Source: Streptomyces canus
GTDB taxonomy: Bacteria; Actinomycetota; Actinomycetes; Streptomycetales; Streptomycetaceae
Length of the DNA: 64,000 bases
Direction: 5' to 3'
Assembly (NCBI RefSeq): GCF_030815415.1
Contig: NZ_JAUSWW010000001.1
Location: 5,952,001-6,016,000, forward strand
Positions 36,875 through 43,180 of this stretch are shown piece by piece. Made by a program: the position numbers and the translations under genes. Positions within the stretch are counted from its first letter, which is position 1. Each line of letters starts with the position of its first letter. Under the pieces are notes generated by a model. That model was not told the origin of the DNA. It worked only from the letters and a program-made list of their open reading frames with translations, and made no database searches.

Positions 36875-36904
36875 TTGGCGGGCCGGGCGCGGCCCCCCTA
36901 CCCT
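36875..36904 (+). promoter_or_regulatory. Candidate promoter of the serS T-box transcript
   Basis: TTGGCG (36875-36880), spacer 18, TACCCT (36899-36904). The predicted start at about 36911 leaves a leader of nearly 300 nt before serS. Confidence 0.55.
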
Positions 36905-36910
36905 CGACCG

Positions 36911-37205
36911 CAACGCGCTGACGGAGACAAGTAGCCCCGGGCCACGCGAGCAGAGAGAGCCGCCGACAGCTGTGAAGGCGGCCTCGCGGTCCCGGTGCGA
37001 ATCCACTCCCGAGTGCGGGGAGGAAATGCCCCGCCGGCCGGCCCCCGTCATCGGGCCCGAACGAGACCGTCGTATCGGCCGCAGCGATACGGCTCTACGA
37101 CGGTGAAGACGTGGTGGCACCGCGAGCACCCTCTCGCCCACGTCCCGAGGGGCCCACCCCGGGGCGGCGCCTGCCGCTTCGGCAGCACCGGACGGAGCGG
37201 GCACC
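36911..37205 (+). ncRNA. T-box leader (serine-responsive) upstream of serS
   Basis: The antiterminator/antisequestrator fold is complete. ACGTGG (37109-37114) pairs with CCACGT (37138-37143), the 7-nt bulge TGGCACC (37115-37121) fits the UGGNACC consensus that pairs with the uncharged tRNA 3' end, and GCGA (37122-37125) pairs with TCGC (37134-37137). Upstream, AGAGAGCC and GCTGTGAAGGC suit stem I, and the specifier region GCGAATCCACT offers TCC (37002-37004), a serine codon. CGTCC (37141-37145) can alternatively pair with GGACG (37190-37194) next to the GGAG ribosome-binding site, implying translational control. The 3' half is clear; stem I was folded by eye only. Confidence 0.88.
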
Positions 37206-38483
37206 ATGCTCGACGTCACCCTCATCCGACAGCACCCCGACCGAGTCCAGGACGCCCTGCGCAAGCGCGCCGTGGACGCCGACATCCCCACCTTCCTCGC
37301 CCTGGACGCCGCGTTCCGCGAGGCCCGTACCGCCGTGGAGCGGCTGCGTGGGGAGCGGCGGCGGATCTCGGCCGACATCGCCGTACGACGCCGGGCGGGC
37401 GAAGCCGCCGAGGAACTCCAGGCCGACGCCAAGGAGCTGACCGACCGGCTGGCCGCGGCCGAGACGGAACTCGCCCGGCTGACGCGGGAACACCGGACGT
37501 TCCTGGACGCTCTGCCCAACCTCCCGGACGACGACGTCGTCGCGGGCGGCAAGGAGAACAACCAGGTCGTACGGGTCACCGGAACCCCGCCCCAGTTCGA
37601 CTTCGACGCCAAGGACCACGTCCGGCTCACCGAGGAACTCGGCCTCGTCGACCACAAGCGCGGCACCCGGCTCGCCGGCAGCGGCTACTGGGTCTACCGG
37701 GGCGACGGCGCCGCCCTGGAGTGGGCGCTGCTCAACCACTTCCTCGACACCCACCGCCGCGCGGGCTACGAGTTCGTGCTGCCGCCGCACCTGCTCACCT
37801 ACGAAGCCGGTTATACGGCGGGGCAGTTCCCGAAGTTCGCCGACGAGGTCTTCCGCACGGACGACGACCACTTCCTCCTGCCCACCGCCGAGACCGCCCT
37901 GGTGAACCTGCACCGCGGCGAGACCCTCGACGAGGCCGAGCTCCCGCTCAAGTACGTGGCCTACACGCCCTGTTACCGCAAGGAGAGCGGCAGCCACCGC
38001 ACCGCCGACCGGGGCACCCTGCGCGGCCACCAGTTCAACAAGGTCGAGCTGTTCCAGTTCGCCCGCCCCGAGGACTCGGAAGCCGCCCAGCGGGAACTCC
38101 TCGCCCGTGCCGAGGAGTTGGTCGCCGGGCTCGGACTGCACCACCGGGTCACCCAGCTCGCCGCCGAAGACACCAGCCCCGCCCAGGCCAAGACCTACGA
38201 CGTCGAGGTCTGGCTGCCCAGCCTCGGCGCGTACGCCGAGGTCAGCTCGGTGTCGAACGCCCGTGAGTACCAGGCCCGGCGCGGCGGCATCCGCTACCGG
38301 CCGGCGGGCGGCGCCAAGTCGGCGTACGTCCACACCCTCAACGCCTCGGGCCTCGCCACCAGCCGGCTGCTGCCCGCTGTCCTGGAACAGCACCAGCGGG
38401 CCGACGGAACGGTCGAGGTGCCACGGGTGCTGAGGCGCTGGGGAGCCCCCGAACTCCTCCGTCCTCGGGTTACCCGGGGTTAG
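37206..38483 (+). CDS. serS: Seryl-tRNA synthetase
   Basis: Class II synthetase of 425 aa. The N-terminal helical arm (about 25-105) binds the tRNA-Ser long arm. Motif 1 lies at about 190-200 ('GYEFVLPPHLL'), motif 2 is 'CYRKESGSHRTADRGTLRGHQFNKVELFQF' in outline (conserved Arg and Gly), and motif 3 is 'NASGLATSRLLPAVLE'. Several positions differ from the housekeeping actinobacterial enzyme (motif 2 'GSAGRDTRG' becomes 'GSHRTADRG'), so this may be a second, T-box-induced copy. GGAG at 37194-37197 precedes ATG 37206. A strong terminator follows. Confidence 0.92.
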   Translation: MLDVTLIRQHPDRVQDALRKRAVDADIPTFLALDAAFREARTAVERLRGERRRISADIAVRRRAGEAAEELQADAKELTDRLAAAETELARLTREHRTFLDALPNLPDDDVVAGGKENNQVVRVTGTPPQFDFDAKDHVRLTEELGLVDHKRGTRLAGSGYWVYRGDGAALEWALLNHFLDTHRRAGYEFVLPPHLLTYEAGYTAGQFPKFADEVFRTDDDHFLLPTAETALVNLHRGETLDEAELPLKYVAYTPCYRKESGSHRTADRGTLRGHQFNKVELFQFARPEDSEAAQRELLARAEELVAGLGLHHRVTQLAAEDTSPAQAKTYDVEVWLPSLGAYAEVSSVSNAREYQARRGGIRYRPAGGAKSAYVHTLNASGLATSRLLPAVLEQHQRADGTVEVPRVLRRWGAPELLRPRVTRG

Positions 38484-40315: not shown

Positions 40316-41364
40316 AGGTGCGGATCCTGGTGCTGGCGGCGCTCCTGGCGCTGGTGTCGGTCGGGTCGTTGCCCGTCCAGGCCGCCGAGCGGCCCACCGT
40401 GAAGCTCTCCAAGTCCCAGGCGGGGACCGGCGGTTCGATCACCGTCACCGGCAGCGGCTGGCGTTCGAAGGCGCTGCTGATGATCCTGGTCTGCGGTCAG
40501 GCCGTGCCGTCACGGGGTGTGCCCGGCGGCACCAACTCCTGTGCCAACGCGGACGGTCGGGCCGTCACCACCGATGCCGACGGCCGTTTCAGCAAGAAGC
40601 TGCCGGTCGCCGAGCCGCCCGTGCCCTGCCCCTGTGTGGTGCACGTGGCGACGGTGACCGGGGCGAAGGCCGAGGCCGACGCCATCTTCCAGGTCGCCGG
40701 ACACGCGGTGGAGCCGCTGCCCGCCGAGGCCTCCGGCGGGCGGCTGTCGGTGCTCACCGACACCCGGCTCGACGGCTCCAGCGGACTGCTGACCTGGTTC
40801 GGGGCCCCGCCCGTCCGCACCCTCGTCTTCACCGTCGGCAACGTCGGCACCTCGGAGATCAAGAACCCCCTCTTCCAGGTCGGCACCTCCCACGGCGTGT
40901 TCGCGCCGCAGTGGGAGGAACAGCAGTGGCGCGGCACGATCGGGCCCGGAAAGAAGGCGCGCATCGAACTGCCCGTCGAACTCACCGGCGGCGCGCACGG
41001 TGACTACACCGTGTCCCTCAAGTACGGCGGCAAGGTCCTCGCCGAACAGCCCTGGGGCGTGGGCCGGCCCTGGGGCGTGACCGTGTTCTGGATCCTGGTC
41101 TGTCTGGTCGTGCCCGCCGCGCTGTTCCGTATCGGGATGGCCGTGATCGACCGGGCGCGGCCGCACCGGTCCGGCCGCGCACGGACCCCGGTCCGGCTGC
41201 GACTGCCCGAACTCACCCTGCGGCTCCCGGGGTTGCACATCCCGGACCGGGAGCCGCCGCCCCCTTCGACCCTGCCGTGGTTCACCCCGGACTCCGATCC
41301 GGGCGCCGCCGGCCGGCTCTCCGCACCGCACGACGACAACTCCACGACCGTTCCTAGAGACTGA
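40312..41364 (+). CDS. Secreted, membrane-anchored protein with neocarzinostatin-like domain
   Basis: Protein of 350 aa: signal peptide (1-25), a neocarzinostatin-like Ig fold (about 26-125; 'VKLSKSQAGTGGSITVTGSGW', disulfide cysteines in 'VCGQAV' and 'NSCANADG', and 'PCPCVVHV'), a second beta domain (about 140-250), a transmembrane helix (about 258-280) and a basic, Pro-rich cytosolic tail. GTG start at 40312 overlaps the preceding stop. The 3' end abuts a TnpB-related element: this stop codon and that of the element's gene overlap by 11 bases. Role unknown, probably part of a wall complex with its neighbours. Confidence 0.75.
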   Translation: MKVRILVLAALLALVSVGSLPVQAAERPTVKLSKSQAGTGGSITVTGSGWRSKALLMILVCGQAVPSRGVPGGTNSCANADGRAVTTDADGRFSKKLPVAEPPVPCPCVVHVATVTGAKAEADAIFQVAGHAVEPLPAEASGGRLSVLTDTRLDGSSGLLTWFGAPPVRTLVFTVGNVGTSEIKNPLFQVGTSHGVFAPQWEEQQWRGTIGPGKKARIELPVELTGGAHGDYTVSLKYGGKVLAEQPWGVGRPWGVTVFWILVCLVVPAALFRIGMAVIDRARPHRSGRARTPVRLRLPELTLRLPGLHIPDREPPPPSTLPWFTPDSDPGAAGRLSAPHDDNSTTVPRD

Positions 41365-42991
41365 GCGGGAGTGAGTCCTGTTGCCAGAACTCATGCTCAG
41401 CCGAACGCCCCGAACGGTGCTGAGCGTTCTGGTGGCCCGCGTTCGCTCCGCGGTCCGGCGGCACGGATCGTGTCCGTGGTCCGGAGATGTGGGGGCGGGT
41501 TCCCTCACGCCCAGGGACTCCTGGTCCGGCCTGGACGGTCCGATGCCCGACACCATCGCTCTGGTGGTGCCGGGGCGGTGCCGTCCGTCGCCGGATCGGG
41601 CGTCCCTGGGCGCGCCGTCCGATCGCCACGGCGGCCGCGTCGTGGCGAGTCGTCTTCCTGTTTTCGTGGGTGAGGGGCTTTTGCCAGTGCTGGGCGCCCC
41701 ACTTGGAGGTGTAGGCGGGGTCGACCGCGACGATCGTGATGGCGGTCTGGTCGGCCATGGAGGTGAGCCGGGCGCGGAGCCTGCCGGTGGGCATGCCGGA
41801 GATCAACTGCCTGAACCGTTTGCGTCGGCCGTGTTTCTCACGGGTCTTCTCCGCGGCGAAGTCCAGGTCCTCGACCGCGATCGCCTTCACGCCGCAGGTG
41901 CGGGCCCAGTGCAGCAGCCGGGTCAGAGCGTGGCGGACCTGAGCGTCCCGATGCTCGGCGGTGCCGGTCAGGTCGAAGGCGAAGCGGCGCGGGCTGCCGG
42001 CCGGGTTGCCGTGGGTGTCCAGGCGCCAGGCGGCCAGGTGATCGGCGTTCATGTCTACGCCGATCACACCGTGCGCGAGGGCGGCGGCCATCGGGACGGT
42101 CCGGGAAATCGGGAGCTGCCAGGAAGCGGTCAGATACCAGCGGCCACGGTCCACATCGAGGTGGATGCGGTAGGCGACCGCCCGGTTCGCCGCCACCCGG
42201 TCCGCCCACTCCTGCCCCCGGTGCGGGAAGCCGACCCGGCAGGCCAGGACGTACCGGCCGTGCGGGGCGTTGGCCAGATGTGTGAGCGGCGCCGGGAGTT
42301 TGATGCTCACCTCGCCGTCCGGGCTGACACGGATCGTCTCGTTGCCGTATCGCTTCCCCGACTCGCCGTCCGCCTGCAGGAAGCAGCGCTCTGCCTCCCA
42401 CCGCCGACGCCAGTCGGCCTCGGTGAGCTGGGCGTCAGACAGGTGGTGGCGGGTGCGGGCCAACCGTTTCCCGCCGCGCACCACGTGTACGGTCCCGGCC
42501 TCGCGGTCGGCCCGCACGCGCTCCAGACGGCCCTCCAGGACGTGCAGGCGGCGGGTCTTGGCGTGCCACTCCCGCCTGCTGCGATAACCACCGGGCGCCT
42601 TCTTCGAGCCCTTCGCGCCGACCGGCAGCGACAGCCGGTGCGCGATCGTACGGATCCCCGCCTCAAGGCACTGGATGTGGGCGAGCTGGCAGCGGCGGGC
42701 CAGCGCCCACTGATCATGCGTGGCCTTGGTCAGCGACCCGGCCCACCGGGACGACGACGCAGCCGTCAGCTCCCGCTTGCGGGCCGCCGACGTCGTTGCG
42801 GAGTGCCCCAGACCCTCCGTACACCGCACCTTCAAGTCCCGGGAGGCCAGCGAGCCGAGGTGCGCACCGACCAGCGCGAGGACCTTCTCATCGGCGGGCG
42901 TGAGCTGCTTGAGACGGGTCCGGACCGCCACCCCCGAGGGACCGGGCACGACAAACGACGCCGCAACCTCCCGCAACCCGTCCACCCCCAT
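41354..42991 (-). CDS. IS200/IS605 family TnpB-related protein, no zinc ribbon
   Basis: Protein of 545 aa, about 140 longer than typical TnpB. RuvC-I is 'VIGVDMNADHLAAW', RuvC-II 'IAVEDLDFAAEKT' and the final Asp lies in 'TRHDAAAVAIGRR'. Where TnpB has a CxxC...CxxC ribbon, this protein reads 'YTSKWGAQHWQKPLTHENRKTT' with no cysteine pair. The long N-terminal half (about 1-300) is unlike compact TnpB. I recognise it as the streptomycete 'TnpB-related' family. ATG 42991 is chosen; ATG 43030 is possible. Converges on the surface-protein gene at 41364. Confidence 0.8.
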   Translation of the reverse strand: MGVDGLREVAASFVVPGPSGVAVRTRLKQLTPADEKVLALVGAHLGSLASRDLKVRCTEGLGHSATTSAARKRELTAASSSRWAGSLTKATHDQWALARRCQLAHIQCLEAGIRTIAHRLSLPVGAKGSKKAPGGYRSRREWHAKTRRLHVLEGRLERVRADREAGTVHVVRGGKRLARTRHHLSDAQLTEADWRRRWEAERCFLQADGESGKRYGNETIRVSPDGEVSIKLPAPLTHLANAPHGRYVLACRVGFPHRGQEWADRVAANRAVAYRIHLDVDRGRWYLTASWQLPISRTVPMAAALAHGVIGVDMNADHLAAWRLDTHGNPAGSPRRFAFDLTGTAEHRDAQVRHALTRLLHWARTCGVKAIAVEDLDFAAEKTREKHGRRKRFRQLISGMPTGRLRARLTSMADQTAITIVAVDPAYTSKWGAQHWQKPLTHENRKTTRHDAAAVAIGRRAQGRPIRRRTAPPRHHQSDGVGHRTVQAGPGVPGREGTRPHISGPRTRSVPPDRGANAGHQNAQHRSGRSAEHEFWQQDSLPLSL

Positions 42992-43180
42992 ACAGCCCCC
43001 GAGAACCCGTTCATCACACCCAACGAACACCGCGCGGAAAGGTCACACATTCGACGACCGAACCCCGATTCCCCTCGCGGAAAGCAGCACCCAGCAGCGC
43101 GTCAGACCCCTGCGCGCTCACTCACACCAGAACGCACTCGTACTCAGTCAAACTCCAGCAGTTCCCAACCCCCACCAGAA
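41354..43180 (-). mobile_element. Element carrying a TnpB-related gene, inserted in the surface-protein cluster
   Basis: The large TnpB-related gene lies on the minus strand between two plus-strand surface-protein genes whose products belong together. No tnpA or flanking repeats were seen. The right end (relative to the gene) falls at about 41355-41400, at the 3' end of the 40312 gene. The left end is not defined. Confidence 0.5.

Follow-up and report, generated by a model that had tools for sequence, protein, structure and literature searches.

The window analysed here, a stretch of 64,000 nucleotides from Streptomyces canus, contains a second seryl-tRNA synthetase gene, serS2, whose leader is, with near certainty, a T-box riboswitch (Table 1). 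The serS2 product scores 380.6 bits against TIGR00414, for which the cut-off is 301.65, and retains the ordinary SerRS motifs; the other SerRS of the genome also passes this model, and the two serS are 36% identical. No T-box match was found within the 6.5 kb of the other serS. Genes for a sigma factor, a STAS protein and an ATPase precede serS2, and a gene for an LPXTG-type protein follows it. An open reading frame on the reverse strand, at positions 41354-43030 of the window, is TnpB-like, although its score of 43.1 bits falls short of the cut-off of 100. A promoter was proposed by eye such that the transcript start would fall about at the start of the T-box, and TAnnCT occurs at the place of TACCCT in all 23 serS leaders compared; a scan with the sigma-70 consensus gave no promoter match there.

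Table 1. Features of the serS2 leader and gene (positions in the window).
Feature	Position	Strand	Sequence or pairing	Remarks
Proposed promoter	36875-36904	+	TTGGCG 36875-36880, 18 nt, TACCCT 36899-36904	by eye
T-box riboswitch, whole element	36909-37144	+		RF00230 match plus covariation
Stem I	36923-37009	+	base GGAG 36923-36926 with CTCC 37006-37009	
Stem I, AG-rich side	36948-36957	+		
Stem I, distal helix	36959-36982	+	GCCGCC 36959-36964 with GGCGGC 36977-36982	
Stem I, apical loop	36965-36976	+		
Specifier codon	37002-37004	+	TCC (Ser), context GAA-TCC-A	TCC in 23/23 serS leaders
Stem II	37015-37034	+	GCGGGG 37015-37020 with CCCCGC 37029-37034	covariation alignment
Stem IIA/B region	37035-37063	+	CCGUCA	F-box-like
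Stem III	37066-37104	+	ACCGTCGT 37066-37073 with ACGACGGT 37097-37104	
Antiterminator/antisequestrator	37108-37144	+	helices A1 and A2 around the bulge	
Helix A1	37108-37144	+	GACGTGG 37108-37114 with CCACGTC 37138-37144	
T-box bulge	37115-37121	+	TGGCACC (UGGCACC)	UGGC complementary to tRNA 3' GCCA
Helix A2	37122-37137	+	GCGAG 37122-37126 with CTCGC 37133-37137	
Proposed relay	37141-37200	+	four strands	pairings possible in 14 aligned leaders
Relay strand 1	37141-37146	+	CGTCCC	
Relay strand 2	37159-37167	+	CCGGGGCGG	
Relay strand 3	37174-37182	+	CCGCTTCGG	
Relay strand 4	37194-37200	+	GGAGCGG	Shine-Dalgarno side
Shine-Dalgarno	37194-37197	+	GGAG	8 nt upstream of ATG
serS2	37206-38483	+		second seryl-tRNA synthetase, 425 aa; TIGR00414

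An earlier note, made from the sequence alone, had recognized a T-box in front of serS, and this reading is borne out. In a search of 411 bases, the leader matches the covariance model RF00230 end to end (1-219/219, 63.7 bits, E 1.1e-13; E 6.7e-13 at genome scale). With gathering scores applied, a default Rfam scan found nothing in the window, because the score of the leader is below the curated cut-off of 93. However, T-box matches at E ≤0.001 occur in 245 of 246 Streptomyces genomes and none of them reaches 93, so this cut-off is uninformative for the T-boxes of the genus, and the leader was consequently filed as a T-box by its other features. All the standard parts are present, namely Stem I, specifier loop, Stem II, F-box-like stretch, Stem III and the antiterminator with its bulge, and among them the stems, the bulge and the TCC specifier that the earlier note had named could all be located. 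Within Stem I, we take the AG-rich side and the apical loop to be the positions of the elbow-binding motif; likewise, CCGUCA is likened by us to the F-box consensus. The distal part of Stem I is absent from three of the 23 serS leaders (L008, L009 and L010), and the long arm is kept in the other 20. The folding energy of positions 36911-37205 is only weakly unusual (z -1.75, with 12 of 200 shuffles equally low). A folP RNA match inside the element (24.8 bits, against a cut-off of 99) was taken as a chance overlap.

The structure was further examined by covariation in an alignment of 49 distinct Ser and Asp leaders over 301 columns, in which identical cores were merged and from which 24 rows failing a motif filter were excluded. 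Over the 53 pairs of the structure, 97.8% of cells are paired, and double changes are found in 147 cells, in 23 pairs; shuffles give 43.8, and none of 500 reaches 147. Slid versions of the structure gave at most 30 doubly changed cells, a comparison that favours the real structure because it was derived from the same alignment. Both sides have changed in seven of the eight pairs of Stem III. In the antiterminator, 100% of cells are paired, with both-side changes in four of the seven A1 pairs and none of the five A2 pairs; A2 and the base of Stem I are almost invariant and of little informative value in this respect. Could the leader then be a functionless sequence that resembles a T-box through decay or by chance? 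Its score lies under the Rfam cut-off, and the genomes G326 and G067 have lost the 3' half of the element together with serS2, but the E-value, the covariation and the agreement of codon with gene contradict this reading, which we regard as hardly credible.

The specifier, which the earlier note had read as serine, agrees with a tRNA of the same genome. Three tRNA-Ser sequence patterns had no match on the genome; the Rfam tRNA model then succeeded, and five tRNA-Ser genes were recognized among eleven long tRNA genes retrieved. One of these tRNAs has the anticodon GGA and an encoded 3' end GCCA, so that the UCC specifier is complementary to the former and the UGGC of the bulge to the latter. 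Neither of the outcomes that the earlier note had named as a refutation was seen: the covariance model does match, the bulge UGGCACC is found in 22 of the 23 serS leaders, and the specifier is TCC in all of these leaders.

For a survey of the genus, a 27-base pattern leaving the specifier free was run on 392 Streptomyces genomes. It gave 59 matches in 45 genomes, of which 23 have TCC, 36 have GAC and none has another codon; a reversed control pattern gave no match in the same genomes. Over 65 distinct loci, TCC lies upstream of serS in 34 of 35 and GAC upstream of aspS in 29 of 30, and the two are never crossed: codon and gene agree in all 63 loci that have synthetase sequence downstream, and at the remaining two the gene is gone. 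One of the 34 TCC-serS loci retains the 3' end of serS alone. The N base of the bulge is C in 29 of 30 TCC elements, the exception being T in Catenulispora; of 19 GAC elements, 15 have C and four have T. The base after the specifier, where a purine is expected, is A in the window and C in 15 of 30 TCC and 17 of 19 GAC elements.

Neither the divergent second-copy nature of serS2 nor the existence of this sister T-box with the specifier GAC had been mentioned in the earlier note. The sister element lies upstream of a second, archaeal-type aspS in Streptomyces, the product of which matches NF003483, aspartate--tRNA(Asn) ligase, with E 8e-146 at locus L163. Its architecture is identical to that of the serS2 T-box and the two can be aligned over 301 columns, whereas the specifier and the gene differ. 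At L163:9265-10587 and 28 other loci, an archaeal-type aspS follows a GAC T-box of this architecture. The GAC element is present in 34 and the TCC element in 22 of the 392 genomes, and they co-occur in 11 (Fisher p 1.5e-7, uncorrected for kinship), in eight of which they lie at most 15 kb apart. In addition, a search of 394 genomes of other genera of the class found seven more GAC elements before AspRS-like genes (37-40% identity). A match with the specifier GGC in the genome G745 has two mismatches, no bulge motif and no synthetase match, and was dismissed as chance.

Several further observations concern the surroundings of aspS2. Between the T-box-bearing serS2 and aspS2 there is an APH-kinase-like gene at L148:10204-11235(-) and L150:10095-11078(-); both matches are weak, one above and one below the cut-off. 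Downstream genes are common to seven aspS2 neighbourhoods; at three loci (L163:10664-14029(-), L147:16726-20000(-) and L148:13260-15024(-)) they match radical SAM and cupin-like models or are small open reading frames, and there they resemble a peptide biosynthesis cluster. In the aspS leaders L086-L147, a hairpin (GTCC..GGAC or GCCC..GGGC) surrounds the Shine-Dalgarno sequence and a GGATCAT/ATGATCC complement covers the start codon; the ON/OFF folding test does not separate these.

Where did serS2 and its T-box come from? In a tree of 90 proteins with a midpoint root (L120 and L132, being too short, were omitted), the 28 T-box-bearing SerRS rows form one clade with a support of 100/99, well apart from the genome's other serS. 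Besides L031, the rows closest to the clade under this root come from an Oligoflexia, a planctomycete and clostridia; it should be noted that several rows of the tree are long or oddly composed. Based on this placement, the sequences suggest that serS2 was imported from outside the genus and that its T-box arose once. The T-box is present at 19 of the 80 loci of a search of named genomes, 18 from Streptomyces and one from Catenulispora, and was not seen at L031, a Streptomyces serS of 56% identity, nor at more distant loci. An Rfam scan of nine of the 61 weaker serS loci gave nothing at E ≤0.01. Upstream of all 61 (at most 400 bases, less at contig ends), TGGNACC matched six times (L025, L026, L053, L061, L070 and L080), each time without an antiterminator context. 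These upstream searches thus do not support the idea that the T-box came along with serS from its closest relatives outside the actinobacteria. Cases of decay were also seen, at L130, L124, L154 and L129: serS2 is deleted along with the 3' half of the T-box in G067 and at the first locus of G326, it has an in-frame stop in G110, and aspS2 is lost behind an intact-looking T-box in G319.

As for the mechanism, the UCC specifier would read the anticodon of tRNA-Ser(GGA), and from these complementarities we infer that the leader binds this tRNA. The 3' GCCA of the uncharged tRNA would pair with the UGGC of the bulge and hold the antisequestrator A1/A2, whereby the ribosome-binding site of serS2 would be open and spare SerRS would be made. 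When the tRNA is charged, A1 would be given up, its 3' strand would join the hairpin CGUCCC...GGGGCG, and the Shine-Dalgarno strand with the start region would be masked by strand 3 (CCGCUUC), by the freed 5' strand of A1, or by both. In the relay that we propose for the window group, the OFF state would pair strand 1 (37141-37146) with strand 2 (37161-37166), so that strand 3 (37174-37180) would mask strand 4 (37194-37200); in the ON state A1 would be formed, strand 2 would pair with strand 3, and strand 4 would be free. In all 14 aligned leaders the helix of strands 1 and 2 is complete, with 8-9 of 9 pairs between strands 2 and 3 and 5-7 of 7 pairs between strands 3 and 4. No compensatory changes in the relay helices, which are GC-rich, were found among these leaders. 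The earlier note had proposed another route, the pairing of CGTCC (37141-37145) with GGACG (37190-37194) beside the ribosome-binding site; the window leader has this pairing, yet it is the single one of the 14 aligned leaders to have it complete, and the pairing was therefore rejected as a general mechanism. The translational regulation that it was meant to explain remains likely by structure prediction.

Folding tests were made on 29 serS and 19 aspS leaders, with L023 omitted. For the window leader, the predicted pair probability of the antisequestrator without tRNA is 0.08, and the Shine-Dalgarno sequence is predicted to be unpaired at 0.71 in the ON and 0.33 in the OFF state. The ON state is predicted to open the Shine-Dalgarno sequence or the AUG relative to OFF in 23 of the 29 serS leaders; a gain in exposure above 0.1 is absent in the other six and in 13 of the 19 aspS leaders, six of which show the effect. 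In L020, one of the aspS-linked serS leaders, the 3' strand of A1 is the predicted partner that masks the Shine-Dalgarno sequence. However, among ten leaders with shuffled spacers, the ON/OFF difference was matched in 0.05-0.78 of trials for the Shine-Dalgarno sequence (0.07 for the window) and in 0.13-0.88 for the AUG, and since shuffled spacers so often give an equal difference, folding does not establish the switch.

The same T-box could instead act on transcription, if CGUCCC-GA-GGGG...CCCC-GGGGCG were a terminator without a U-tract that the antiterminator prevents. This hairpin shares bases with the 3' strand of A1, which is typical of terminators, and it is complete in all 14 leaders, and exposure of the ribosome-binding site is nearly independent of state in part of the window group. 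But the hairpin is followed by GC-only sequence with no U-run, and a scan of the leader found no terminator with a U-run; furthermore, for the eight serS leaders that are linked to aspS, the Shine-Dalgarno sequence is predicted to be unpaired at 0.40-0.61 in the ON and 0.00-0.01 in the OFF state, which fits translation there. We consider action on transcription unlikely. The best explanation, and in our judgement a probable one, is a translational T-box that would make a spare SerRS when tRNA-Ser(GGA) is uncharged.

The T-boxes of serS in Firmicutes are transcriptional and act on the usual serS, unlike the present one, in which no terminator was found and the gene is auxiliary. According to PMC2494555, serS is among the ligases controlled by T-boxes in almost all Firmicutes examined. 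For actinobacteria, T-boxes were found on ileS alone in PMC1262725. As described in PMC1262725 and PMC7583486, these translational ileS T-boxes likewise lie before a synthetase gene without a U-tract terminator, and Shine-Dalgarno masking is proposed; they have an Ile specifier and UGGU, in contrast to the serine specifier, the UGGC and the second-copy synthetase of serS2. Most translational T-boxes are without the distal Stem I arm according to the review (PMC1262725/PMC7583486), unlike the serS2 leaders, which mostly keep it. The S. canus genome has two T-box matches, the serS2 leader and an ileS leader (46.3 bits), and the opinion of the earlier note that a serine-specific T-box on serS is unusual is borne out for Streptomyces. 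A literature search by title and abstract start found no description of a Streptomyces serS or aspS T-box, and the TBDB passages searched do not name Streptomyces or serine, although TBDB entries may include them. The observed T-box, with its covariation, its fit to tRNA-Ser(GGA) and its link to a second-copy serS, is a regulator of a known kind, and its setting, a second serS or aspS in Streptomyces, was not found in the literature searched.

Then, what could a spare SerRS be for? Most likely, SerRS2 would serve as a backup at times of serine shortage or of a block of the main SerRS, as by the albomycin warhead or another mimic of seryl-adenylate. A second, insensitive synthetase has been described for each of albomycin, mupirocin and indolmycin (PMC9437257, PMC9032320), a resistant second SerRS occurs in an albomycin producer and microcin C targets AspRS (both in PMC9032320). 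By the descriptions in these papers, serS2 resembles SerRS2/AbmK of albomycin producers in that a Streptomyces strain has, next to its housekeeping SerRS, another that is divergent; here the two share the 36% identity given above and both pass TIGR00414. The albomycin review PMC9032320 contains no occurrence of the term T-box. A relation to an albomycin cluster was considered and set aside, as the genes around L031, inspected by eye, include an ABC exporter but none that evidently belong to albomycin. We put forward the hypothesis that serS2 confers inducible resistance to SerRS inhibitors, tentatively and at somewhat less than an even chance.

Plain homeostasis would let an ordinary second SerRS rise at low serine or low charged tRNA-Ser, with no link to inhibitors. 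Firmicutes serS T-boxes commonly serve in this way (PMC2494555), and the window locus, lying amid sigma factor, STAS, ATPase and LPXTG-type genes, has no evident antibiotic cluster; this absence of a biosynthetic cluster among the genes examined is neutral on resistance. Against homeostasis, the TCC element is restricted to 22 of 392 genomes, the other serS of the genome is without a T-box match, and serS2 comes from a divergent lineage and is broken or deleted in some genomes. We regard homeostasis as quite possible, if short of probable. A role in natural-product synthesis, in which serS2 would supply seryl-tRNA or seryl-adenylate like VlmL/AbmK and the T-box would adjust its amount to how much charged tRNA is available, seems rather improbable: both roles are described in PMC9032320, and in G269 the TCC T-box serS2 adjoins NRPS, ATP-grasp and dehydrogenase genes, but this is one of 20 neighbourhoods retrieved, the window is without such a cluster in the genes examined, and the ordinary SerRS motifs are retained. 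In G269 (L157:6743-18988 with L177:179-11782), sugar-type genes were also seen beside serS2, along with the NRPS and ATP-grasp genes.

Taken together, imported SerRS and AspRS under T-boxes, some by biosynthetic genes and some decayed, fit inducible resistance, as well as homeostasis or biosynthesis. To return to resistance, drug-tolerant SerRS and AspRS under paired T-boxes may have been imported to form an RNA-sensed resistance regulon in some Streptomyces, the Ser and Asp T-boxes being one element with a changed specifier and the genes travelling together in part of the genus; we offer this as a tentative proposal that could well be right, though we would not yet call it probable. What such a riboswitch would sense is the uncharged tRNA that the antibiotic brings about, rather than the antibiotic itself, and it would then turn on the insensitive synthetase.

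If so, the T-boxes of Streptomyces would extend beyond ileS to the guarding of second synthetases. The element pairs a long Stem I with a terminator-less leader and would read a class II tRNA with its long variable arm, and the three leaders that lack the distal Stem I are natural variants for probing the purpose of that arm. A genome that carries a TCC or GAC element with this core would be marked as one that expects inhibitors of SerRS or AspRS, which would provide a sequence handle for discovering such inhibitors and their self-resistance genes.
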